Below, piece by piece: positions 1,575-33,301 of a stretch of 34,997 nucleotides of DNA. How positions within the stretch are numbered: the stretch's first letter is position 1; every line of letters starts with the position of its first letter. A model generated the notes under the pieces. It searched no databases. It was given only the letters and a program-made list of their open reading frames with translations, and had not been told where the DNA came from. Position numbers and translations under genes: made by a program. This DNA comes from a virus: positions 12 through 35,008 of the IMG/VR virus record IMGVR_UViG_3300000553_000148; one strand, written 5' to 3'.

Positions 1575-1967
1575 TTAGCGCTTGGCGCTGGGAATTTCCT
1601 GGACGGTCTCGACCAGGTGGACGTAGGGCAGGTAGTGGAAAAGGTTCTCGGGCTCATCGCCAATGACCCAGAGCTGCAGGCCCTTGGCGATCGCATAGCC
1701 GAATTCGACGTGCCGGCTGCCACGGGGGGGCTGGGCGGTCGGAGGCTCAGCCAGCAGGACGATCGCGTCGGCCCGGTCGATGTCGGCCAGGTCGAGCGTG
1801 GCGTGCACGGCCAGATCACAGGGGTCGAGATCAACGAGCTGGACGTTGGGTGGGTGGGTCTCGGACAACCAGGTGCTGGTGATCTCGTGGCCCGCGTCAA
1901 CGAGCTGCGTGGCGAGCTCGCGGGCCTTCACGATTCGGCTATAGGATGCGGCGACGTAGATCCTCAT
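1575..1967 (-). CDS. Nucleoside 2-deoxyribosyltransferase-like protein
   Basis: A 130-aa protein with the N-terminus MRIYVAASYSR, a Rossmann-like first strand, then ADAIVLLAEPP near residues 66-76 and HVEFGYAIAKG at 86-96. The Glu of EFGYA (E88) sits where the family keeps its catalytic nucleophile. Family members exchange bases on deoxyribonucleosides or cleave (d)NMP glycosidic bonds, so a nucleotide-salvage or base-modification role is likely. AGGAGG lies upstream of the ATG, and the ATG overlaps the stop of the metallophosphoesterase (ATGA). The length is close to small phage and bacterial homologues. Substrate cannot be read from sequence. Confidence 0.75.
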   Translation of the reverse strand: MRIYVAASYSRIVKARELATQLVDAGHEITSTWLSETHPPNVQLVDLDPCDLAVHATLDLADIDRADAIVLLAEPPTAQPPRGSRHVEFGYAIAKGLQLWVIGDEPENLFHYLPYVHLVETVQEIPSAKR

Positions 1968-3280
1968 TCGGCCTCCTGTTTGCGCACGTAGCGCTGGCCG
2001 CCAACGATCGCGGCGTTATCACTGAACACGACGGGCTCGGCGATCGCGGCCCTGGTGGTGGTGTCGACGTGGACAATCACGAACCCGTTTTGGTTGCGGT
2101 TCTTGTCGGTGTAGCTGTTGTCGACCCGGGCCATACAGCCATTGGTTACGCCCCACACGCTGCCGAGAACCTCGTTGCAGTGGGTTTTGAGGGCGGGCTT
2201 GTGGGTGTGGCCGGCGATCCAGTTGGTGCCGAAAGAAAACGTGTGGTCGGGGTAGTGGTCGATCGTGACGCAGCCGAAATAGGTGCGCCGGTTCTTACCC
2301 ATCTCAGCTCGAACGTCGCTGGCCTTGAACGCGGCCAGGTCGTGCTGGCAGACCAAGTTGATCTCCCACTGGCGGAGGCCAAGCAGGTCCGCGAACGTGA
2401 GGCCCATGAAATCAGCCAGGACGGCCCGCATCTCGGGCGTGCGCTCGCTCATGTGGCGGAGCATGTGGTGCTCGTGGTTGCCGGCCAGGAGGTCAATCTG
2501 CGCGTTGGGGCAGGCAGCTCGCAGGGGCCCGAACAGGTTGTCGCGAACCCAGGCCAGGCGCCCGGCTGCGTCCCACTGGCGAGGGTCCTTGTCGAACCGG
2601 CTGAACTCGTAGCTGTCGAACACGTCACCGGCCAGGCAAACGATGGAGGGCTGCACGCGCCGGCAGGTGTCCAAGAACACTTCCAGAGCAAACGGGTCGG
2701 TCTCAACGTCGTGGAAGTCCGAGGCGACGATCATGGTCTGCCAGCGGCCCTCGCGGTCCTTCTCGTAGCGACCGTTCCAGGGCAGAACCTCCACCTCCAT
2801 GAACCCGCGACGGGCATCCAGACTGGCGTGCTTGGCGATCTGCAGCTCAACCATGTGCTGGCCGCGGCTCAACTCCAGCCGGGCCTGGCGCCTGAACTCG
2901 TGGAACGTGCCGAACCTCTGGTTCCAGGTGGACTCAGAGAAATGACCCTCAATCTTGTAGAACGACCGGCTGATGTATTTCTCAGGGTGTTCCTGCTGGA
3001 CACGGCGGAGGTCCTCGATCAGGTCCTCCGTGGTTGCCGTCGGATCATACTTGAGGGCCTGCTCGCTGAGTAGCGGGGTCTCGGCCTCCGGGTGCGTGCT
3101 CAGGTGGGTCTGGATTCTGTGGTAGCGGAGCTCGCGCCCGTGTTGTTCCCACTCGGCGTCCCAATCGGTAGGGAATGGAATGCCCTGTCGCAGGCACATT
3201 CGGCGCCTGTTCGACTTCCAGCCTTTCCATGCGCTACCAACAGGTTTCGGATAGGTGTGTGGCTGGTTTGGCTCAGTCAT
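1964..3280 (-). CDS. Calcineurin-like metallophosphoesterase with HNH-repeat-like N-terminal domain
   Basis: A 438-aa protein from an ATG preceded by GAGGG; the open frame runs further upstream but without a better start. Residues 182-362 carry all metallophosphatase metal motifs: DFH (188-190), GDVFD (218-222), GNHEHH (267-272) and GHTH (357-360). Residues 84-135, with EDLIEDLRRV and WNQRFGTFHEFRR, look like the homing-endonuclease-associated repeat found in phage DNA-binding proteins. The basic N-terminus (KGWKSNRRR) fits nucleic-acid binding. It probably hydrolyses phosphodiesters, perhaps in DNA. It sits after the tail genes in the late operon, an unusual place for a DNA enzyme. Confidence 0.85.
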   Translation of the reverse strand: MTEPNQPHTYPKPVGSAWKGWKSNRRRMCLRQGIPFPTDWDAEWEQHGRELRYHRIQTHLSTHPEAETPLLSEQALKYDPTATTEDLIEDLRRVQQEHPEKYISRSFYKIEGHFSESTWNQRFGTFHEFRRQARLELSRGQHMVELQIAKHASLDARRGFMEVEVLPWNGRYEKDREGRWQTMIVASDFHDVETDPFALEVFLDTCRRVQPSIVCLAGDVFDSYEFSRFDKDPRQWDAAGRLAWVRDNLFGPLRAACPNAQIDLLAGNHEHHMLRHMSERTPEMRAVLADFMGLTFADLLGLRQWEINLVCQHDLAAFKASDVRAEMGKNRRTYFGCVTIDHYPDHTFSFGTNWIAGHTHKPALKTHCNEVLGSVWGVTNGCMARVDNSYTDKNRNQNGFVIVHVDTTTRAAIAEPVVFSDNAAIVGGQRYVRKQEAE

Positions 3281-3342
3281 GTTCCCTCTTGCCAGAGAGA
3301 GTGGTGACTGACGACTGCGGCGGGCACCGGGTCCAGCCGCAC

Positions 3343-3660
3343 CTACCGTGTGCGCGGGTAGAGCTGTCCGAATGCCGGCCGCCCTCCGCCCGTCTTGTAG
3401 ACCGAGGGGAACGTCAGGATCGCGAGCCGGCCCATTGGTGGGGTCGGGACTCGGTTGTAGATCCGCATCTTGCGCGTGTCTCCGCCGGGTTTCAGGAACA
3501 GCGGGATCTGCAGGGACTCGGAAGTTTTGTGCACCTGGTGCCCCGCCGGCAAGGGCCTCATGGAGACCCTTACCGGCTGATAGATTCGGAAGCACGATGA
3601 GAGCCCCGAATTGCGATAGAGGAACGTCGGATCGATAAACGCCTTCGCTGGAGCGGCCAC
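3343..3660 (-). CDS. Hypothetical 105-aa protein of the tail operon
   Basis: GTG start with an excellent AAGGAGG seven bases upstream, nine bases after the stop of the 729-aa appendage gene. The product is basic and rich in Pro, Gly and aromatic residues (for example QPVRVSMRPLPAG and KMRIYNRVPTPPMG), with no membrane helix and no signal peptide. No family is recognised. Position after the last tail appendage gene suggests a small virion component or an assembly factor. A 62-bp gap follows it before the metallophosphoesterase gene. Confidence 0.65.
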   Translation of the reverse strand: MAAPAKAFIDPTFLYRNSGLSSCFRIYQPVRVSMRPLPAGHQVHKTSESLQIPLFLKPGGDTRKMRIYNRVPTPPMGRLAILTFPSVYKTGGGRPAFGQLYPRTR

Positions 3661-5868: not shown

Positions 5869-7338
5869 CTATGCTGTGATGACGGTTCGATTGCCACCGT
5901 TGGTGGCGGTTTCGGTTGGGTAGTAGCGGAACCAGTCCACGAAATACGTGGCGATAGGGTCCTGGATCCCACCCACCTGGTTCGAGAAAAATGCCAGACC
6001 GACGTAGGACATGGTTCCGGCGAATGAGGTGACAGTGCATCCAGACGACCAGGCGATGCCGTCAGCGCTGGTGTGGAATGAGTAAGAGTTGTCTGCGTGG
6101 CGAACGATTTTCAGATACAGGCTGTCGGTTCCAGCGGGCGACCATGTGCCAAGGTTCAATCCGAACCCGGTCCCGGTTGTCATCACGGGTGCGGCCTTAT
6201 GGTCCCCAGAGATGATTGACATCAGGAATCCCTGATTACCCATTGAAAAGATCGTGCTGTCACTCAGCGCCAGTCCGATGCCCGCAAACCCGCTGAACGC
6301 ATTTGAAAATGGGCTGGCCGTATGAATGCGGACCTTGGCCATGATTGTGAACACGCCGGCAGGAACCGACTGCAGGATCGCGGCAACGCTAAGCCCTCGG
6401 CTAATCTGCTGCGCATATAGGTGGCCAGGAATTGTCCCGTTGACACTGATCGACGACAGGTTGATAGCATTGAACGTCCATTTTCCAGCCAAGCTGCTGC
6501 CGCTGAATTCGTCGTCGTAGGCAGAGGGCGAGCTGGGCGGCATGTCTGGATCAAATACCGTCCAGGTGGTCGTTCCCATTCCGGTTCCGTTGGCACCTGC
6601 CGGGCCGGTTGCGCCAGTCGATCCAGCGGTGCCCTGAGGACCGGTTGCCCCTGTGGGGCCCTGGATGCCCTGAGCACCGGTGGTTCCTGTGGCACCAGTT
6701 GCTCCCGTTGCACCCGTCGGGCCAGTGGGGCCCTGAATGCCCTGGAGGCCCTGCGCACCAGTGGGACCTGCCGGCCCCTGGAGCCCCTGGAGGCCAGTAG
6801 GGCCCATGGGACCGGTGGGGATGGTGTGCTCCTGGGGCAGGACGGTGAAATCGATCGTGAGCGGGCCCGTGTAGCTGGTGTCCATCGAGGTCACGGCGAT
6901 GTATGCCGTTTTGCCCACCGGGTTGTCGCAGTTGTTGAACAGCGGGGCCGGCGACCAGTTGAGCGCCAGGTGGTCGGGTGCATAGGGGGCGATTTCGCCG
7001 ATCACGCCAGAGCCTGGCAGGGGGTCGACGGTCATGGTCCGACTCACGTCGGCAGCTCGGGCCGCTGCGCTCACGTAGACGCGGATCCAGCAGGTGTGAT
7101 CGGCTGCCACCGAGATGAGGTCACAGGACTCCGCGAACGTGAGGTCGAGGGTTGCCGTCTGGTTGCTGGTGAGCGAGCTGGTGATGCCGCGCACCGTAAT
7201 GCGGCCCTTTTGGCCGACAGCGGTGTCGAGTGCGGTCATCGCGTCGCGGATCGCCTGGCCCCATTGCGTGCCAGACGCTTTGCCTGCGCCGTCAGGGATA
7301 AGGGGCAGTCCCAGGTTGGGAGTGGTCGGGAATGTCAT
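5869..7338 (-). CDS. Tail fibre with N-terminal attachment domain, collagen-like shaft and C-terminal beta domain
   Basis: A 489-aa protein starting at ATG after AAGGGA. Residues 1-170 contain [23 protein letters not shown] and a beta domain with [15 protein letters not shown]; this whole part is paralogous to the 197-aa protein at 8493-9086. Residues 176-253 are about 26 uninterrupted Gly-X-Y triplets rich in GPT, GAT and GLQ, a trimeric collagen-like shaft. Residues 260-480 look like a concanavalin-type beta sandwich ([12 protein letters not shown] near its start, [20 protein letters not shown] later), suitable for glycan binding. It is probably a trimeric host-recognition fibre. Confidence 0.82.
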
Positions 7339-7341
7339 GGT

Positions 7342-7509
7342 TTATCCCTTCAGGGGCCACTGCTGGCCAGTGGACGGGAGGGCAGGCTGATCCTGCTGCA
7401 GAGCCGTGGCTGTGGTGGCTCCGGTGTTCACGCCGAACATGACGAACGGGCCATGGATCAACAGCGCGTCTGGAATGCAGTTGGGCTGCGGGAAGATGGT
7501 CTGCGTCAT
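7342..7509 (-). CDS. Small 55-aa tail-operon protein
   Basis: A complete small frame between the fibre gene and the 325-aa gene, with three-base gaps on both sides. The product begins MTQTIFPQPNCIPDALLI and ends TGQQWPLKG. The upstream GTGGGAATAAGCC offers a modest ribosome site. There is no membrane helix. The tight fit between neighbours and sensible composition support translation. Function is unknown; it may be a small fibre-associated or chaperone protein. Confidence 0.6.
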   Translation of the reverse strand: MTQTIFPQPNCIPDALLIHGPFVMFGVNTGATTATALQQDQPALPSTGQQWPLKG

Positions 7510-7512
7510 GGC

Positions 7513-8490
7513 TTATTCCCACAGCATCATGTAGGACGCCTGGCCATCGGGGTTCCCGTCAAACAATCGCGGGCCCACGTTGTCATAGAGTCGCCCGCAC
7601 GGCATGTAGGCGTGTGACACGCCATACATGGGCATGTTCAGGGGCTGCCCCGCTGGAGCGTCCCAATACGTATACATAACCAGCGACCTGATCGGGTTGG
7701 ATGGCTGACCCGCAAATAGGCGAATAGGGCAGACTCCGAACGTGTTCGACTCGCCCGAGAAACTAGCGGTAGTCAAGCTGGCGCCAGTCGGGACAGCTCC
7801 GATCACATTAAGGCTCAGCGCAAAGTTACGTGTAGGGGTTGCATACTGCGACATGGGTCCAATCGGGCCAATGCCAAGTTCCGTTCCACGGCCACTACCA
7901 GACGCCATGAACGCCACGTCGCTATTGTCGTTTCCGTTAACGTCCTGGCCCCGCTCGATGGCGAACGTCAAACCCTCGTGTGAGACCGTCTCCATGGCTC
8001 CGAATACCACAGCCACGCGGTTGGGTGCAGCACTCCCGAAACACGTTCCCTCGGCGGAGATAACGGAAGGCGTTGTCTCCGGGACGTTGAATCCATTTCC
8101 GTTGGGATACCCGTGCACGATAACGCGAGGGATCTTGACGCCGGTGATGGTGCCAGATCCGTTTGACCCAGTTCCGATGGTGATCCAAACAGCCGGGAAC
8201 CCAGTTCCAAACGAACCACAACCGTATTCGATCTTCACAAACACGGGAGCCGTGGACTGGAGTGCGTCGTTCATACGGAAAATGTGATAACCCTTGGCCT
8301 GCGGGGCCAGCGTGCAGGCTGACATCGACGCGGTCGTAGCCTGTCCCGTGTCCGAAGTCTTGACCCATCCGCCCGCCAGGAACAGATTCTCGATGAATCC
8401 AACCCACTGTCGGATGCAAACGACAGTGGCCCCGAGACCGGTCACGATCGAATCGGACCTTGTGGAAATTTGCGCCATGCTGGTTGCCAT
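7513..8490 (-). CDS. Phage tail structural protein (325 aa)
   Basis: Starts at ATG after CAGGAGTAAAA. The N-terminal third has a hydrophobic segment (WVGFIENLFLAGGWV) and the segment YHIFRMNDALQSTAPVFVKI followed by GFPAVWITIGTGSNGSGTITG. This kind of segment recurs in phage tail-tip and fibre-region proteins of unknown fold. Composition is Gly/Ser/Thr-rich and beta-prone. It lies between the two paralogous proteins that share the NLGLPL attachment domain, so it probably belongs to the same appendage complex. No enzyme motif is seen. Confidence 0.65.
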   Translation of the reverse strand: MATSMAQISTRSDSIVTGLGATVVCIRQWVGFIENLFLAGGWVKTSDTGQATTASMSACTLAPQAKGYHIFRMNDALQSTAPVFVKIEYGCGSFGTGFPAVWITIGTGSNGSGTITGVKIPRVIVHGYPNGNGFNVPETTPSVISAEGTCFGSAAPNRVAVVFGAMETVSHEGLTFAIERGQDVNGNDNSDVAFMASGSGRGTELGIGPIGPMSQYATPTRNFALSLNVIGAVPTGASLTTASFSGESNTFGVCPIRLFAGQPSNPIRSLVMYTYWDAPAGQPLNMPMYGVSHAYMPCGRLYDNVGPRLFDGNPDGQASYMMLWE

Positions 8491-18487: not shown

Positions 18488-18502
18488 GTGTGCTCCTGGA
18501 AT

Positions 18503-18528
18503 CGGCAGGGCGCCGGAACGCCCCGCCG
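18503..18528 (-). other. GC-rich hairpin after the capsid gene
   Basis: CGGCAGGGCG (18503-18512) pairs with CGCCCCGCCG (18519-18528), 9 of 10 positions, with a 6-nt loop. It occupies the 58-bp gap between the capsid stop and the next gene. No T tract follows, so it is more likely an mRNA-stabilising or partly attenuating hairpin than a full terminator. Confidence 0.55.
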
Positions 18529-18545
18529 GTTCAGAACATCGCGGT

Positions 18546-20402: not shown

Positions 20403-21972
20403 TGGCGTCCTCCTGGTCGTCCTTCTTGGTTTTCTCGGTGTCCTTGCCGTCGCCGTCGTCCTTGGGCTCGATAGCCTCCTGAGCTCCAGGGCCCGCAGCG
20501 GCGGGAGGTTTGGCCAGGGCGCCGATATTCAGGCCCAGCTTGTCGATGAGGTCCTGCTCAGCCTTGAGCTGGTTGCAGAGCTCGACGAAATCAACGCCCT
20601 TCTCTGCGCAGACACGGGTGCGGGAATCGAGGCCGAATCCAATCGACTCGATCTTGCTCTGCGTGTCTTTGACGGGGTCGACCCAGTCGAAACCGCGAGG
20701 CTCCCACTGGTGGGTGCTGAACTTCTCGAATGTGACTCCGGCAGGCAGGGCAATCTGGCCAGTGAGGAACACCTGCGCGAACAGGAACTCGTTGGCGACC
20801 CGCTCGCACAGCGAACCAACCAGGAGCGCTTGGCACTCGCGGAAGAAATCACGCTGCTGGAGGATGCCCTGGCGGATCGAACTGAAGGACACGCTGGTCA
20901 GGTCACCAGTGAGGTCGGAGTAGGCCACGCCCATGCCGGCGGCGATGAGCTTCAGGATGGCCTTACTGAACCCGTCGAACGCCGTGTTGGGGTGCTGCAG
21001 GTTGGGGAACTCGATGTCGAGGCCGGCGGGGACGCCCTGGTAGAAGATGCCGTTTTCGCGGGGCATCGACCGGGCGGCCATCATGGGGTCCAGGTTCGTA
21101 TTGAGGTCGCGGTCGTCGTCGTTCTCCAGGCTGCCGCTCGTGTCTTTGAGCAGGCCCAGGCGCTGCGATTCGTGGTGGGCTGCAGCCACCTCTGATTCCC
21201 AGTAGGAACCCAGGAGGCTGAGCAAATACATCGACGGCGCGACCCAGCTCGTGCCACGCGTCTGGATGCAGCGCTCGGGATCGAACCCATGAATGATGTC
21301 CTCGGCGGGGATGCGGACCTTGGGTCCGGCGCCCCATGCCTGGCGGTAGTTGATGAGCTCGGGATCAGTGAACCAGTAGGCAGCGGGCCGTCCGTAGAGG
21401 TCGACCTCGACGCCCTGGATCACGGCGTTCCTGCCTTGGCCGGCAACCACGCTGTAGTTGTGGTCCAGCAGATCGGCGTCGAGCCACTGCAAGGCGAACC
21501 CGTATTTGTTGCCGCTGTATCCGCGAATGATGCGAATGAACGCCTCGCCGTCCATGGCGATCGTCTTCATCCACTGGCGCTGGACAGCAGCGAAATCACT
21601 CTTGCCATCAGCGGTGGCGGACTTGGCCCACTGGCCGAACACGTCCTCGATCTTGTTGGCGTAAGGGTCGCGCCGGGTGCCGGACTTGCGGCTGCTGAAC
21701 GTGCTCTGGAACGTGCATCCCTTGGGGCCCGCAGTGCCATCCGATATCAGGCGCAGGAACTGGCGCATGATCGGGTTGTTGTTGGCGAGGCGCCGGGCGT
21801 TGGACCGCAGGAGCATGGCGTCGCGCCGGATCTCCTCGTCCTTGCTGCGGAGTTGGTTGATCCAGCCGGCACCGGCCTGGGGGGTCGCGCCAACGTAGTA
21901 GGCCGCGATGTTGGGCAGCATCATGCCGCGCTTGCCGGAGCTTTTGAAAAGGCCCTTCAGACGCTCAAACAT
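20395..21972 (-). CDS. Portal protein (lambda B family)
   Basis: 525 aa, starting at an ATG that overlaps the upstream TGA (TGATG). Landmarks of lambda-type portals are visible. They include RSNARRLANNNPIMRQFLRL near residue 60, QWMKTIAMDGEAFIRII, ALQWLDADLLDHNY, VRIPAEDIIHGFDPER and the crown-side YSDLTGDLTSVSFSSIRQG followed by LLVGSLCERVANEFL. The C-terminus is highly acidic and Lys-rich (PKDDGDGKDTEKTKK). It forms the dodecameric DNA gate at the capsid vertex. Order terminase - gpW - portal - protease is that of lambda. Its stop lies inside the start region of the protease-capsid gene. Confidence 0.93.
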   Translation of the reverse strand: MFERLKGLFKSSGKRGMMLPNIAAYYVGATPQAGAGWINQLRSKDEEIRRDAMLLRSNARRLANNNPIMRQFLRLISDGTAGPKGCTFQSTFSSRKSGTRRDPYANKIEDVFGQWAKSATADGKSDFAAVQRQWMKTIAMDGEAFIRIIRGYSGNKYGFALQWLDADLLDHNYSVVAGQGRNAVIQGVEVDLYGRPAAYWFTDPELINYRQAWGAGPKVRIPAEDIIHGFDPERCIQTRGTSWVAPSMYLLSLLGSYWESEVAAAHHESQRLGLLKDTSGSLENDDDRDLNTNLDPMMAARSMPRENGIFYQGVPAGLDIEFPNLQHPNTAFDGFSKAILKLIAAGMGVAYSDLTGDLTSVSFSSIRQGILQQRDFFRECQALLVGSLCERVANEFLFAQVFLTGQIALPAGVTFEKFSTHQWEPRGFDWVDPVKDTQSKIESIGFGLDSRTRVCAEKGVDFVELCNQLKAEQDLIDKLGLNIGALAKPPAAAGPGAQEAIEPKDDGDGKDTEKTKKDDQEDAND

Positions 21973-22520
21973 CAGAACACCCGTTCAGGACTGTGGAACG
22001 TGAACATGGAGCCACCGCGCTCTCGCCGGACCATGCCGCGATAGACGCCACGCAACTTCAGGAGGTCGGCGTGGGGCAGGTGCTTGGCCTTCACGCCGTC
22101 GATCTCGTATTCGACGATTGAGTCGCCCAGGCGGCCCTCAAGAACGGCCTCCACGGCAGCCAGGCCCTTCTCGGCGTGGGTGCGCGGGTCGTAGCCTGCC
22201 GGAGGATTCGCGGGGTCGATCAGGACCTTGAGGACGCCAGAGCCGACCGTGTAGCGCTCGGTGCCATTCGACACAGTGGCGACATAGCGATAGTCGCCCG
22301 GGGTGAGCTCTGCGGTGACTGCGGCTGCGATCCGCACCTCGTGGCCGTTGGGGTCGGTGGGAGAGGGTGCCGATTCCAACGTCTGAACCACAGCTCCAGC
22401 GAGGTGGAGGTATAGCGCCAGCGCCCAACCATCAGCCGGCGAATACGCGGGCAGATCGATAGACCAGAGAACTGTGTCTCCAGCCGTAAGGGCGTTTGGG
22501 ATAGTGCGGATCGCGGCCAT
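21972..22520 (-). CDS. gpW-like head-tail connector with extra N-terminal beta domain
   Basis: 182 aa. The C-terminal 70 residues (THAEKGLAAVEAVLEG, then VEYEIDGVKAKHLPHADLLKL and RGVYRGMVRRERGG) follow the helix-hairpin-helix plan of lambda gpW, which binds below the portal. The N-terminal 100 residues begin MAAIRTIPNALTAGDTVLW and look like an Ig-type beta sandwich (LELTPGDYRYVATVSNGTE-like region). Lambda gpW is only 68 aa, so this is a two-domain version. Just upstream is a 75-bp gap with a conserved dyad element. The ribosome site is weak. Confidence 0.75.
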   Translation of the reverse strand: MAAIRTIPNALTAGDTVLWSIDLPAYSPADGWALALYLHLAGAVVQTLESAPSPTDPNGHEVRIAAAVTAELTPGDYRYVATVSNGTERYTVGSGVLKVLIDPANPPAGYDPRTHAEKGLAAVEAVLEGRLGDSIVEYEIDGVKAKHLPHADLLKLRGVYRGMVRRERGGSMFTFHSPERVF

Positions 22521-22562
22521 TCTTTGGGGTTTCCCTCAGATATGGCCAGTTTCGTGGTGCAG

Positions 22563-22594
22563 CACTGCGGGGATTACCCTACTGAGCCGCAGTG
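22563..22594 (-). promoter_or_regulatory. Dyad element A with conserved GATTACCCTAC loop
   Basis: CACTGCGG (22563-22570) pairs exactly with CCGCAGTG (22587-22594). Between them lies GGATTACCCTACTGAG. The element begins next to the stop codon of the zinc-ribbon gene and its downstream edge is 43 bp from the gpW-like start. A near copy stands at 31606-31631 in the same context. It may be an activator-binding site or an RNA hairpin; see findings. Confidence 0.6.
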
Positions 22595-22595
22595 T

Positions 22596-22778
22596 CTACT
22601 TGTTGCTGTAGCCGTCCTTATACCAACCGCCACCCGACAGGTGGAACGAGCTGTTGGCGATGATCCTCTCGGCCTGCTTGCCGCACTCAGGGCAGGCGAT
22701 CTCGCGCTGCTCCCGGTTGTGGGTAAATCGCTCGGCCATGGTTGCGCAGGAGGTGCAGCGGTAGAGGTATAAGGGCAT
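22596..22778 (-). CDS. FmdB-type zinc-ribbon protein
   Basis: 60 aa, ATG overlapping the terminase TGA, with TGGAG upstream. It reads MPLYLYRCTSCATMAERF and later ACPECGKQAERII, giving two CxxC knuckles (C8, C11 and C29, C32). This is the short FmdB/CxxC regulatory-type zinc ribbon that begins MPxYxYxC. Its role in phages is unknown; location between the large terminase and the gpW-like gene suggests help in packaging or connector assembly. The last 20 residues are Gly/Ser/Tyr-rich and unstructured. Confidence 0.8.
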   Translation of the reverse strand: MPLYLYRCTSCATMAERFTHNREQREIACPECGKQAERIIANSSFHLSGGGWYKDGYSNK

Positions 22779-24739
22779 CACCAGGCTCCAGATCCACCAC
22801 CCATCGGGCGTGGCGTTGTGGTGGGGACCTGCACGGCCTGTGGCGACGGCTGGGGTCGTCCAACCACGCGCACGACCCTGCGGGGCATGTCGGGTGCAGG
22901 CTCGGGTTGATTCACTGCGGCGGCCACGGGATCAGTCGCAGTGTGTTCAGCCATCTCTGGATCAGGGGCCCGTTTCGGCATCTCCATCGCCTGGCCGGCC
23001 CTAGAGACCATGGCCTTCAGGTCCTTTGGGGCAAAAATAGAGACCGCGGCAAGGCAGTAAACGTGCAGATCCAGGATCTCGTTGGGTCGCCCCGCCTTGA
23101 CCTGCTCGTAGGCCCGCCGGCCAGACTTGCGTGTCGCCCGCTCGGTCAGCAGCTCGTCGAAATAGTACTGCTCGGTGTCACATGGGAAATGCTGGAATCC
23201 GCCGCCGTGGACAGCGATTTTCAGCGAACTGTAGATGTCGTCCTTGGCCGAGACCGTGTCGACCAGGTGGAGGCCCTTCACCTTCTTGGACTTCAGCACC
23301 AACTTGGCCTGGGGCGTCGTGGCGCCCTTGATCGGGTAGATGACGCTGGTGAGGTCTCGGCGCTCGCGGCGGAACTTGTAGACCTGTTTGTCAAAGTGGC
23401 CGCCGGTGTCGATGGCGCATACGCGAACCCGCATCGATCCTCCCGACACGCGAGGCCAGCTCCGTTTCAGATAGCTCTCCAGGACGTCCCAGGGCTCATC
23501 GGTCAGCAGGTTGCCCGGGATCTCGACATGCTCAACGGTCCAGGCTTCCATGCCGGCGCCAAATCCGCGCACCAACAACTCCAGGCGCTGCGGATTCTCG
23601 GTCTGGATGTCGACGCTGGCCACCAGGAGACCGACGCCATCGGGGACGGTGCCGGAGACGTAGGACTCATCGCGGGCCCGCTTCATCAGGCCCTCGGCAT
23701 CAGCCGCCTGGCCGTGGTTCAGATCCCAGGTCTCGCCCAGGCTCTCGTTGACGAACGTCTGGAGCTGGGCCGGGCCGCCGGCCACCTTGGTCACGAACGA
23801 CTGAGCCATGCCTGCCAGCGTGCTCCAGGGGCTATACAGCTCGTTTAGGTGGAAACCGACTGTTCCAGGCACCAGAGCCTCGCGGGTGGCCCTCCAGACG
23901 CCCTTGCGGAGCATTCCGGGCCGGTGCGACTCGGTGATCTCGCCCCCACAGACCGGGCAGGCCAGGACCGCCTCCCAGGGCTTGCCCTCTGGCCAGACGA
24001 CGTTTTTCCATTCCAGCAGGTGGAACTCGTCGCAATGGGGGCACGGGACATAGCGTTTTCGCATGTCCGAGGTGTTGAATGCCTTCTCGATCCTGGACTC
24101 GCCCTTGATGCCTGGCGTGCTCACGTAGACATGTTTCCGGCGCCCGACATAGGTCTGCGTGCGTTTCACGGCAAGGTCGATTGGGTCACCCATTCCGGTG
24201 TCCTCACAGAACTTGTCGACCTCGTCAAAAAACACGGCGCGGCAGGTGCGGCTCGCGAGTTGGCTGGGGCTGTTACTGCCGGCGATGGCGATGAAACCAC
24301 CGGCGAACTGTTTCAAGAGCTGCGTGTTGCTGCTGTCCCTGGCCTTCTCCACGATCCGCTCAGCCAGCTCGGGCGTGTCTCGGATCAGCAGGCTCAGGCG
24401 TTCTTTTGACCAGGCCGTGGCAGATTCTACGGTCGGGTAAACGACCAGCATTGGGCAGGGGTCCTGGTGGGTGAAATAGCCGATTGCGTTGTTGATCGCC
24501 TCTGATTTGCCGACGCGCGCGCTGCACATCAGCACCACGTTCTCGACTGCTGGATCGCTGATCGTGTCCATGATTTCCCGCAGGTGGGGGGCCCTATCCG
24601 TTCGCCACCTACCTGGTTCTGCTGAGATCTCGGGCGAGAGCCGTCGGTAGGTATCGGCCCAGCCGCTAACCGTTAGGCGAGGCGGGGGGGGAAGGACGCG
24701 GGCCCGGATCTCCCTGGCCAGGGAGAGAGGATCACGCAT
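22778..24739 (-). CDS. Terminase large subunit (GpA family)
   Basis: 653 aa. The ATPase half has a Walker A variant CSARVGKSE (72-80) and Walker B VFFDEVD (169-175). A zinc-binding pair, CPHC (233-236) and CPVC (261-264), is characteristic of the GpA family. Nuclease-domain acids are likely D377 (SVDIQTE), D444 (CAIDTGG) and the Asp in LDLHVYC. It cuts and translocates concatemeric DNA into proheads with the Nu1-like subunit. GpA-type terminases normally use cos sites. The ATG overlaps the end of the small-subunit gene by eight bases, so expression is coupled. The C-terminal 60 residues are Pro-rich and low complexity. Confidence 0.95.
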   Translation of the reverse strand: MRDPLSLAREIRARVLPPPPRLTVSGWADTYRRLSPEISAEPGRWRTDRAPHLREIMDTISDPAVENVVLMCSARVGKSEAINNAIGYFTHQDPCPMLVVYPTVESATAWSKERLSLLIRDTPELAERIVEKARDSSNTQLLKQFAGGFIAIAGSNSPSQLASRTCRAVFFDEVDKFCEDTGMGDPIDLAVKRTQTYVGRRKHVYVSTPGIKGESRIEKAFNTSDMRKRYVPCPHCDEFHLLEWKNVVWPEGKPWEAVLACPVCGGEITESHRPGMLRKGVWRATREALVPGTVGFHLNELYSPWSTLAGMAQSFVTKVAGGPAQLQTFVNESLGETWDLNHGQAADAEGLMKRARDESYVSGTVPDGVGLLVASVDIQTENPQRLELLVRGFGAGMEAWTVEHVEIPGNLLTDEPWDVLESYLKRSWPRVSGGSMRVRVCAIDTGGHFDKQVYKFRRERRDLTSVIYPIKGATTPQAKLVLKSKKVKGLHLVDTVSAKDDIYSSLKIAVHGGGFQHFPCDTEQYYFDELLTERATRKSGRRAYEQVKAGRPNEILDLHVYCLAAVSIFAPKDLKAMVSRAGQAMEMPKRAPDPEMAEHTATDPVAAAVNQPEPAPDMPRRVVRVVGRPQPSPQAVQVPTTTPRPMGGGSGAW

Positions 24740-28574: not shown

Positions 28575-29402
28575 TCAGTGGCCGCCGGCGATGATGGTCC
28601 CGAGAACCGTCCCGAGCGTGGTTGTGGTTGTCCAAAAGGTTCCGAACAGGCAGGCGTTGGAACCGATCTTTGGCATCGCGAGCCGGGCCCAGTCACGGGT
28701 GTCGTTGTAGCCTGCGACAGCCAGGAACGAGGTCGCCAGCTTCTTAGTGGCCGTTACACCGAAGTTTCCAGCGGTGCCTGTGGTAGCGCTGAGGGTCACG
28801 CTGGTGATGCCCTTGATCGTGCGACCCGCGACGGCAGGCTGGATGCGATACATGCGATAGGCCGGGACGGTTGCGGGAAGTGCGACCACCACGTTGCCAG
28901 TGCTCGCGTCGTCGTAGGTCACGGCTACCGTGGCGTTGACGCCCGTTGCACCTGTGGCCGTATACCATTCCAGGAACCACTCGACATCACTTCCAGATAC
29001 ATCGCAGCGACCATCGGCAGCAGGGGCCGTCAGGGTCGCTGCAACAGTCTGCGCCGTAGTCACAATTCCAGACATGCCGCCCATGTGACCAATGCGGTCG
29101 CGCAGGATTAGGCTCTGTCCAGCATTGGTCATCACGATGTCAGTGAGTAGCAGACGGTTAGTCCCACCTGACGAGTTGGCGTATTTCGGGGCCCATGTTC
29201 CGGCAGTGGCAGCGGTGGGATGTGCCCAGGTAGTAGGCGCAACACCCACAGTAGGACTGCCGGTCATCATCCAGCCGGAATAGTCGAAGTTGGCCACGAC
29301 GGTCAGGGTCGTTTTATAGAACTCTTGCCGGCAGCCGGAACCGCCATTAGAGGCGGCAGCCAGGGCCGAGACTACGTCAGAGGCTGTCGCGAAATCAGTC
29401 AT
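28575..29402 (-). CDS. Virion-associated protein, paralogue 1 (275 aa)
   Basis: ATG overlapping the previous stop (ATGA), with TTGGAG upstream. Segments SLILRDRIGHMGGMSG, GRCDVSGSDVEWFLEWYT, VAVTYDDASTGNVVV, GRTIKGITSVTLSATTG and VTATKKLATSFL match the next gene in order. The N-terminal third (VVSALAAASNGGSG, then the FYKTTLTVV region) differs more. Both copies end in a compact domain with RDWARLAMPKIG or KGWEELGLAEVG. A capsid-surface or tail-attached role is inferred from composition and context. Confidence 0.68.
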   Translation of the reverse strand: MTDFATASDVVSALAAASNGGSGCRQEFYKTTLTVVANFDYSGWMMTGSPTVGVAPTTWAHPTAATAGTWAPKYANSSGGTNRLLLTDIVMTNAGQSLILRDRIGHMGGMSGIVTTAQTVAATLTAPAADGRCDVSGSDVEWFLEWYTATGATGVNATVAVTYDDASTGNVVVALPATVPAYRMYRIQPAVAGRTIKGITSVTLSATTGTAGNFGVTATKKLATSFLAVAGYNDTRDWARLAMPKIGSNACLFGTFWTTTTTLGTVLGTIIAGGH

Positions 29403-29560
29403 TGGACGAGCTCCAAGTAAGAGAAGTCGAACGCGTTCGAGAGGGCATCACAGACGCCATCGAGGAACGCGGTCGTCCCGTCCACCGAGGCCACCTGGTA
29501 TTCGCCAGGGAATGCCTCGGAGAACGGATCGAGGACGCGGACGCGATCGCCGGTCTGCAT
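29399..29560 (-). CDS. Small 53-aa beta-rich protein
   Basis: The start overlaps the TAA of the 132-aa gene (TAATG) and the stop overlaps the next ATG (ATGA), so the frame fits exactly between its neighbours. The product starts MQTGDRVRVLDPFSEAFPGE, continues YQVASVDGTTAFLDG and ends DFSYLELVQ, like a small SH3/KOW-type barrel. Function unknown. Confidence 0.68.
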   Translation of the reverse strand: MQTGDRVRVLDPFSEAFPGEYQVASVDGTTAFLDGVCDALSNAFDFSYLELVQ

Positions 29561-29958
29561 TACATCGACCGAATGAACGAACTCACCTGGATAGGCCCAC
29601 CGATGACGATGGAGACCGTATTCAGGTTGAGGTCCTGTCCAGAGGTTCCGATCGTGCCCTGCTCAATCACGGTCGTACCGTCGGACTTGAGTGCACGGTA
29701 GAACGCCGCGGTGCCAGTGGCGTCGGCAGAGCTGTCCTGCGTGATGGCATTGGCCGTCATGCTGCCAGCGGAGGGCGCGGGGAACGCGGTGGCGCCGAAC
29801 GTCAGGGTGCCGAGCAGCACCTGGCTGCCGAGGGCGGTGTCAGCGTTGGCCGGCACGCCGCCAGTGGCGTCATAGATTTTGAGCTGGCCCGTGTTGAACA
29901 GGGCAGCGTAGGTGGTGAGCATGGCGTTTTTCTGTGCGACGGCAACAGACAGAGTCAT
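29560..29958 (-). CDS. Small phage structural protein (132 aa)
   Basis: ATG after TTGGAGG. It begins MTLSVAVAQKNAMLTTYAALF and contains GQLKIYDATGGVPANADTALG, then LLGTLTFGATAFPAPSAG and GTAAFYRALKSDGTTVIEQG. This sequence plan is widespread in phages next to virion genes and is predicted to be a beta sandwich. It may be a decoration or fibre-base protein; no experiment-based name is known to me. It leads the accessory virion block after the lysis genes. Confidence 0.72.
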   Translation of the reverse strand: MTLSVAVAQKNAMLTTYAALFNTGQLKIYDATGGVPANADTALGSQVLLGTLTFGATAFPAPSAGSMTANAITQDSSADATGTAAFYRALKSDGTTVIEQGTIGTSGQDLNLNTVSIVIGGPIQVSSFIRSM

Positions 29959-30441: not shown

Positions 30442-30983
30442 TTGCCACCATCATCAGGACGGGACTGCTGCAGGAGCACGTCCTTGTTGGCGCTGCCGGC
30501 ACTGGAGCCGAAATAGTAAGAGATGACGCTGATCCAGGCGGTGCCGAGGCTACCGAGCATGATGTTGAGCACGTCCTTGTTGTCGGACGGCGGGGCCCAC
30601 TTGAGCAGATACCAGAGCAGGGCAAAAAACCCGAGGGTCACGCCGATGGCAAGCACGGCAGGGATCTTGTCCCGCACCTGGATCTCGCGGTTGCGGGCCC
30701 CTTCGCGGTCCTGAACGGCCAGAGCCTGCAGGTCCTTGATCGCGTTGATGTCCAAAGCCTTGAGCTTGAGTTGGAACTCCTGGTCGGCGTCCTTCAGGGC
30801 CAGGAGCTGCTCGGGCGTGACGCTGGTGACCAACTTGGCCAGGTCGTCCGGTGTGGCCTTGGTTGGATCGCCGCCGAGGGCTGAGGCGATGAGCTGACCT
30901 GCAGCTCCACCGAGGGGCCCTCCGAGTGCCGTGCCGAGAAACGGGGCAGCCTTACTAACCACGGCCTTCCAATCGAATGCCAT
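30438..30983 (-). CDS. Holin (3TM family)
   Basis: 181 aa; the ATG overlaps the lysozyme TGA, with GGAGG eight bases upstream. The N-terminus (FDWKAVVSKAAPFLGTALGG, then PLGGAAGQLIASALGG) is a Gly/Ala-rich amphipathic or membrane helix. An acidic and Gln-rich linker follows. Two clear transmembrane helices lie at 107-128 (IPAVLAIGVTLGFFALLWYLL) and 138-158, followed by the family-typical YYFGSSAGSANK. It would form the inner-membrane lesion that releases the lysozyme at the end of the lytic cycle. Confidence 0.85.
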   Translation of the reverse strand: MAFDWKAVVSKAAPFLGTALGGPLGGAAGQLIASALGGDPTKATPDDLAKLVTSVTPEQLLALKDADQEFQLKLKALDINAIKDLQALAVQDREGARNREIQVRDKIPAVLAIGVTLGFFALLWYLLKWAPPSDNKDVLNIMLGSLGTAWISVISYYFGSSAGSANKDVLLQQSRPDDGGK

Positions 30984-31564
30984 CACGCCTCCACAGGGGG
31001 AATGGCATTGGCCCGAGCGGCCCAGCCTTTGGCGAACTTCTGGTTGACGGGCTTGGCGTCGATGATTGCCTGATACCGCTTGGCAGCCTGGACGCAGATG
31101 GCAGCCAGGAGGTCCAGTTCGCCGTCACGGGTCTCGCACTGCTTGTTTATGCCGGAGATCGTCTGAGGGCCAAGCTGGCCGTCAACGGACACGAGATAGC
31201 CGCACAGCACCAGCGCCTTTTGGGTCACCAAAGTGCTACCCAGCAGCCCCATGTTCACGCCCAGGTCGAACAGCTTCCATGAGATCAGATCGCTGTTGAT
31301 AGAGCCGAGGTTCCGGCTGCACCAGTATTTGCGGCAGTAGTGATGCTCGACCGCCTCCTTGGGCATGACCTTCAGGTCCTCGACGTCGACGTGGCCGTCC
31401 TTGTTGAAATCGGACTCGATGCCAGCAGCAGCCGCTTCCTCGAAATCATTGAGGGTGATGCCCGCGAAAGTAGCTCCGCCAGCATCACCCACAATGTTCG
31501 TAAACCGATAGCCCCCCTCGAACTTGAGGGTCCAGTCGAGCAGGCGCTGGGAGAATTGGGCCAT
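30983..31564 (-). CDS. Endolysin, GH108-type N-acetylmuramidase
   Basis: 193 aa from the ATG at 31564; an upstream TTG at 31588 has its purine tract too close. It begins MAQFSQRLLDWTLKFEGGY, with E16 in the place of the catalytic Glu of GH108. GGATFAGITL replaces the usual GGETNFGIT. An insertion at 52-63 (DFNKDGHVDVED) has the spacing of an EF-hand calcium loop. KLFDLGVNMG and SVDGQLGPQTISGIN are the family's second half and the PG-binding-3 motif. It cleaves peptidoglycan glycan strands. No signal peptide is present, so export depends on the holin encoded next. A dyad element lies 42 bp upstream. Confidence 0.9.
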   Translation of the reverse strand: MAQFSQRLLDWTLKFEGGYRFTNIVGDAGGATFAGITLNDFEEAAAAGIESDFNKDGHVDVEDLKVMPKEAVEHHYCRKYWCSRNLGSINSDLISWKLFDLGVNMGLLGSTLVTQKALVLCGYLVSVDGQLGPQTISGINKQCETRDGELDLLAAICVQAAKRYQAIIDAKPVNQKFAKGWAARANAIPPVEA

Positions 31565-31605
31565 GGGCAAATACGTCCAGTAGCCCAATCCTCACGTCGA
31601 CCTGG

Positions 31606-31631
31606 TGCGGCGATTACCCTACGCAGCCGCA
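31606..31631 (-). promoter_or_regulatory. Dyad element B with conserved GATTACCCTAC loop
   Basis: TGCGGC (31606-31611) pairs with GCCGCA (31626-31631) around GATTACCCTACGCA. With flanks it matches element A closely over about 30 bp. It follows the TAG of the Mor-like gene after two bases and its edge is 42 bp from the lysozyme start. No T tract follows, so it is not a standard terminator. Confidence 0.6.
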
Positions 31632-31633
31632 GT

Positions 31634-31933
31634 CTAAAACCCGGACGCCCTCTTAGCGACGATCGCGTAGATCTGGCGCTCGCTGTAGCCGGTCTCGCGC
31701 CGGATCTCGCGCCAGCCCATGCCGGCGCGGTGGAGCTCGACGACGCGGGTGTGGCGCTCCTGGACGATCTGGAACCGGCCCCTGGGGACGTAGACCTCAC
31801 AGCCTCCAGCCACAGCCCTCAGGGCGGTGTCGACCAGCTCAGCGATCCTGGCATGATCGGCCACCTGTGCTTGTTCCAGGTTGAACCGGACAGCGGCCAT
31901 GGCCCGCTTGAACGCGATGGTAGGTTGGGCCAT
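31634..31933 (-). CDS. Mor/C-family transcription activator
   Basis: 99 aa; the ATG overlaps the upstream TAA and GGAGG precedes it. The N-terminal half is helical (FKRAMAAVRFNLEQAQVADH). Then comes the family hallmark, a GG followed by a short strand (GGCEVYVPRG, 43-52), and a helix-turn-helix (VVELHRAGMGWREIRRETG, SERQIYAIV; 64-92). Mor and C of phage Mu are dimeric activators of middle and late promoters that bind dyads upstream of weak promoters. Its place just before the lysozyme and dyad element B suggests it switches on the late genes. Confidence 0.82.
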   Translation of the reverse strand: MAQPTIAFKRAMAAVRFNLEQAQVADHARIAELVDTALRAVAGGCEVYVPRGRFQIVQERHTRVVELHRAGMGWREIRRETGYSERQIYAIVAKRASGF

Positions 31934-33042: not shown

Positions 33043-33100
33043 GGGTGTGTCCTTGTTTTGGGTCAGTGGGTGGGTGGGAGAGAGACAAAAAACCGCACCT

Positions 33101-33139
33101 CGTATAGAGGGGCGCTCTAAAGAGCGCCCCCTCTGTACG
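33101..33139 (-). terminator. Long GC-rich hairpin, possible terminator
   Basis: GGGGCGCTCT (33109-33118) and AGAGCGCCCC (33121-33130) are exact complements. The stem can be lengthened outward with CTCT and TACG on the right arm, with one bulge. On the minus strand a T6 run (33087-33092) follows about 10 nt after the stem, so weak termination after the PrimPol-helicase gene is possible. It overlaps the first CGTATAGA repeat. Confidence 0.45.
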
Positions 33140-33276
33140 AAGAGGGGGTCGTATAGAAGTGTTCGTATAGACCTATACGATTGAAAAACGCAGCATTGGC
33201 AACACTTCCAAGCGATGCCGCGAAAAATCGTATAGAGGTTCGCATAGAGAAAAGGGGGCTGTGCGGCGTATAGAGG
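33101..33276. repeat. Iteron-like CGTATAGA repeats between replication gene and endonuclease gene
   Basis: CGTATAGAGG stands at 33101, 33229 and 33267, CGTATAGAAG at 33150, CGTATAGACC at 33164 and CGCATAGAGA at 33241. A reversed copy (CTATACG) at 33173 makes the palindrome CGTATAGACCTATACG. The 259-bp region 33043-33301 has no convincing gene and is lower in GC. Multiple direct copies beside a replication protein gene are what an origin looks like; operator sites are the alternative. Confidence 0.65.
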
Positions 33277-33301
33277 AAAAAATTGCCGAGAAGCGACATA
33301 T

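Follow-up and report, generated by a model that had tools for sequence, protein, structure and literature searches.

Three dyad-bearing gene junctions and a Mor-family activator gene: a candidate late regulon in a probable Acidobacteriota prophage

The window, i.e. the whole stretch of 34,997 nucleotides analysed here, represents a 35,008-base virus record minus 11 bases. All annotated phage genes lie on the - strand, and hence the right-hand gene of any junction is the upstream one. At three junctions a 26-bp dyad, read on the same strand, separates two genes. Element A (TGCGGCTCAGTAGGGTAATCCCCGCA, 22566-22591) lies between a 61-aa FmdB-type zinc-ribbon gene (22596-22781; Pfam Zn_ribbon_8, 1.2e-10) and the gpW-like head-tail joining gene (21972-22520; PHROG 5774, E 1.3e-33). 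Element B (TGCGGCTGCGTAGGGTAATCGCCGCA, 31606-31631) occupies the first gap after the gene for a 99-aa Mor/C-family protein (31634-31933), the gene order being dNMP kinase, activator, B and a GH108 lysozyme (30983-31564, with its start uncertain between ATG 31564 and TTG 31570). Element C (TGCGGCTGGACCCGGTGCCCGCCGCA, 3316-3341) follows a 105-aa gene (3343-3660) that has a GTG start behind AAGGAGG, and precedes a metallophosphoesterase gene (1964-3280; PHROG 20266, E 1.8e-63).

The tRNA-Thr(CGT) gene at positions 36-111 points to the origin of the contig. Together with its flanks it is 90-99% identical to one Acidobacteriota family, and the matches in this family are longer and higher-scoring than in any of 200 Pseudomonadota genomes sampled. 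Several genomes of the same family carry a second, partial tRNA copy at a distance of several kilobases, which is the kind of trace left by integrated elements. Because of the tRNA and flank matches and the partial second copies, the left end is probably host DNA beside the attachment site, and the contig as a whole probably represents a prophage integrated in an uncultured member of the Acidobacteriota. A separate feature is found toward the other end, in the interval separating the AAA helicase gene from its neighbour. There, about eight boxes (CTATACGA/TCGTATAG) in both orientations fill positions 33093-33290, with a GC-rich hairpin at 33109-33130 within them. The arrangement suggests an origin of replication or an array of operators.

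Elements A, B and C share their orientation, and each is placed directly after a stop codon and ahead of a new gene block. The distance past the TAG stop is 5 nt for A, 2 nt for B and 1 nt for C, and the distance from the dyad edge to the next start codon is 45, 41 (counted to the lysozyme ATG at 31564) and 35 nt, respectively. An earlier note on this DNA had described two such elements, A and B, beginning at the stop codon of the preceding gene and ending 42 or 43 bp before the next start. Both elements are real. However, the gaps to the next start are not exactly equal, and the set was incomplete, as it lacked C. Stop-codon read-through was also considered and discarded, since the frames do not run on into the next gene. 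According to our own gene list, gaps of at least 15 nt total 704 of 33,304 nt, or about 2% of the gene region, a figure that is approximate because gene starts were picked by eye and small genes near 29398-29588 and 7343-7508 have no clean translation. Five gaps in the late region are longer than 50 nt and three of the five hold a dyad site. The remaining two are located ahead of the small terminase gene and behind the gene for the major capsid protein, and the second of these contains a plain GC-rich hairpin (18488-18545).

On the coding (-) strand A and B are identical at 23 of 26 positions. When this strand was scanned with the region of B, A scored 23/26 and the next best place 18/26. The A/B consensus with up to three mismatches matches the window twice, at A and B only, and gave zero matches in 100 shuffles. 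The view of A and B as twin elements is thereby confirmed, no other place in the window being comparable to them. If the A/B consensus is scored along the window, the next-ranked place is C. The arms and the spacing are identical in all three (TGCGGCT-N14-CCGCA), with the TGCGG half-sites 21 bp apart centre to centre, that is, two helical turns. The centre of C is different. In A and B, eleven successive centre bases (GTAGGGTAATC) are identical and asymmetric, whereas this stretch is absent from C. Since C keeps the arms and the length but not the centre, it is the arms and their spacing that this comparison suggests to be the signal.

How often such arms would arise by chance was estimated in two ways. 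A Markov model predicts about 0.015 occurrences of the exact arm pattern per window, both strands counted. In 77 Acidobacteriota genomes of the probable host family, which amount to roughly 240 Mb as the sum of listed genome sizes, the pattern occurs 62 times, i.e. about 0.009 times per 35 kb. This is about as frequent as the reversed control, and two separate arm-pattern sites close together were never seen in these 77 genomes. For C, the probability of a chance arm match is about 1-2% per window, with its position not yet counted. Derivation of the A/B element from a host repeat was rejected, because with three mismatches allowed it is no commoner than its reversed control in the 77 genomes.

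The gene before B had previously been assigned to the Mor/C family of activators, and profile searches bear this out. Pfam Mor (PF08765) matches the 99-aa protein with 2.4e-7 and 31.1 bits against a cut-off of 24.9 (30.2 bits in a second search), and the PHROG match, a late transcriptional activator, has a value of 2e-9. A phmmer comparison with Mu C (9l0x) gave E 0.018. Identity is 23% to Mu Mor and about 24% to Mu C over the GG-Y-P-G motif and the helix-turn-helix. Alignment with both Mu proteins reveals the GG-x-x-x-Y-x-P-x-G strand motif and the C-terminal helix-turn-helix, and helices are predicted at residues 74-81 and 85-96. As for the N-terminal dimerisation domain and the Mor fold, the N end of the protein is shorter, the single-sequence structural model is of low confidence (pLDDT 68), and among PDB structures the model comes closest to Mu C in complex with polymerase (9l0x), though weakly (E 0.9). 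By its profile matches the protein is a real member of the Mor family. Close relatives of it were not found in viral contigs, phage records, 396 Acidobacteriota genomes or 398 Pseudomonadota genomes.

An ordinary sigma-70 promoter was found at neither A nor B. In a post hoc test the best -10-like hexamer came out at the same offset, 12-13 nt past the dyad, in all three leaders. The candidates are GAAACT for A (22548-22553), GAGGAT for B (31588-31593) and CACTCT for C (3298-3303), each of them 12 nt past the dyad and each a weak match. They are poor in that none of the three has T at the first position. Their summed score, obtained with approximate E. coli hexamer frequencies, was reached in 1.9% of shuffles (P 0.019), a value to be read as post hoc and for weak hexamers. 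With a transcription start about 7 nt past the hexamer, the mRNA would still include the probable ribosome-binding sequences of A and C, and the dyad would lie between about -50 and -25, with its centre at about -38. Another candidate, TAGGGT inside A and B, was dismissed as a common -10 because C is without it.

Phage Mu provides the obvious comparison. The Mu Mor dyad at Pm is 16 bp long, extends from -51 to -36 and is centred at -43.5 (PMC4287176), and four late promoters of Mu, which bear related dyads, depend on C (PMC4287176). The present prophage resembles the Mu C system in that the gene of a Mor/C-family activator lies directly before an endolysin gene (in Mu, lys directly follows the C gene) and in that several dyad-bearing late promoters would stand at the heads of separate late blocks, as in Mu (PMC4287176). 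With Mu Mor and Pm it shares the Pfam family and would share an activator serving a promoter without a -35 and, if the start is where we predict it, a dyad overlapping the -35 region. Unlike the single promoter of the Mor system, three sites were found here; their dyads are GC-rich and measure 26 bp outer to outer, 10 bp longer than the 16 bp of Mu, and the predicted centre lies at about -38 instead of -43.5. Protein identity to the two Mu activators is 23-24%, and the gene set, in contrast to that of Mu, is siphovirus-like with a lambda GpA-type terminase, the terminase relatives being lambda GpA-like. No transposase was seen among the proteins scanned, in a contig that may be incomplete. When Mu Plys and Pm were put through the same scan, a 26-bp match above background was not found elsewhere in the Mu stretch.

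None of the collections searched yielded a relative having both the Mor gene and the dyad, and a search of viral contigs with the exact element gave no match. The closest relative found is L018, a 12.8-kb contig (portal 54%, terminase 46% and gpW 44% identity), in which the A/B dyad element was not detected. Mor matches were likewise absent from all 49 TerL- or portal-related viral records, including L018, which is a fragment. Before its gpW gene L018 has a hairpin (ACTGCGGCCTGGCCTTCGGGTGTGAGGGCCGC, 7154-7185) at nearly the distance of A from the start codon, adjoining an inserted gene on the opposite strand. The likeness of this hairpin to our sites, seen at the level of letters, is suggestive only; despite the arm letters in common it was not accepted as a dyad site, being longer by about 5 bp. 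We also abandoned the notion of a dyad generally present before gpW in these phages, for most of about 110 relatives are without one. In the probable host family, the Mor genes found belong to Mu-like prophages. Two of these prophages (L316 and L318) resemble the window in that a Mor-family gene precedes putative lysis genes, there together with a Mu-like small terminase, whereas their Mor proteins are 29-32% identical to the 99-aa protein. No repeated element was found downstream of the Mor genes in these two prophages. As a separate observation, two Lachnospiraceae loci each contain near-identical hairpins (AAGAGAGCTTGGAAACAGGCTCTCTT) twice, at 8424 and 14686 in L126 and at 1233 and 7812 in L138.

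Taken together, we favour the interpretation that A, B and C are candidate operators of one phage late regulon under the Mor-family activator, with a probability of roughly 0.55. A single dimeric DNA-binding protein fits the three sites because C retains the arms and the length but not the centre. The sites with their arms, spacing and positions are established, as is the family of the activator, whereas binding, promoter activity and the role of Mor as the ligand are inferred. The earlier note had taken A and B for late promoters of the head/tail and lysis genes under the Mor-like protein, a reading that our analysis supports in part. According to this scheme, the gene that closes the preceding operon would supply the activator, and a dimeric protein, most likely the 99-aa one, would occupy both TGCGG half-sites. 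Once bound, it would recruit host RNA polymerase to promoters in which there is no -35 and the -10, located about 12 nt further downstream, is weak. Transcription from B would then start the block running from lysis to terminase, that from A the portal, capsid and tail block, and that from C the distal block. In favour of the regulon we count the identical arms and spacing of the three sites at the low chance frequencies given above, their position in gaps, the changed centre of C, the equal offset of the -10-like hexamers, the folding values given below, and the activator gene directly before B, just as Mu C is directly before lys. Against it we count the length and predicted centre of the dyad, which differ from those of the Mu Mor site, the poor hexamers with their post hoc offset, the failure to find a relative with both Mor gene and dyad in the collections searched, the GTAGGGTAATC centre common to A and B, which a dimer site would not need, and the other DNA-binding phage proteins that could be the ligand.

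It might be argued that the sites work at the RNA level, with stem-loops at operon junctions serving in mRNA stabilisation, processing or protein binding, and the earlier note had allowed for such a role. Hairpins just past stop codons would explain why A, B and C all begin 1-5 nt after a TAG. In addition, A folds well (z -3.0), and a different hairpin, with CTGCGGC/GCCGC arms, is present in L018 38-39 nt before the gpW start. However, B (z -0.1) and C (z +0.75) fold no better than shuffles. A stable hairpin is thus not a common property of the sites. Moreover, the exact 26-nt length is kept while the loop of C has changed, compensatory changes are absent, and there is a terminator-like T run at neither A nor B. 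We consider an RNA function rather unlikely.

Alternatively, the ligand of the three sites might be a different protein, with Mor acting elsewhere; a phage repressor, the zinc-ribbon protein and a host regulator are conceivable examples. The zinc ribbon and the MarR-like domain of the AAA protein are indeed further putative DNA-binding proteins encoded here, and additional genes may be missing from the right end of the contig. Yet it is a Mor-family activator gene that stands directly before B, in an arrangement known from Mu, and a host regulon is made less likely by the lack of enrichment of the arm pattern in genomes of the probable host family. On balance, a different ligand seems to us an unlikely solution. 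Finally, A and B could stem from a recent duplication or represent a conserved, asymmetric signal (such as the promoter of a specialised polymerase or a recombination site), with C matching their arms by chance. The exact centre shared by A and B but not C and the direct orientation of A and B would allow this. It is distinctly improbable, however, given that C has both arms exact and occupies a gap of the same kind, at the low chance estimated above, and that no single-subunit polymerase or recombinase was seen among the proteins scanned, which are part of the gene set. For a recombination site, moreover, the arms are short.

Returning to the late regulon, it is tempting to take the interpretation further, although we do so tentatively and regard the fuller version as possible rather than likely. 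The contig would then be a non-Mu tailed Acidobacteriota prophage, in which a Mor-family activator works on dyads one helical turn longer than those of Mu and serves three promoters, one of them for a distal accessory block. The centre shared by A and B might represent a second, promoter-specific signal. Beyond model phages, little is known of how late genes are controlled. If the regulon is real, Mor/C-type control would operate outside Mu-like phages, and there would be three concrete sites to test with one small protein. Arms situated behind an activator gene and repeated at operon heads would, in that case, also provide a pattern for finding the late promoters of metagenomic phages.
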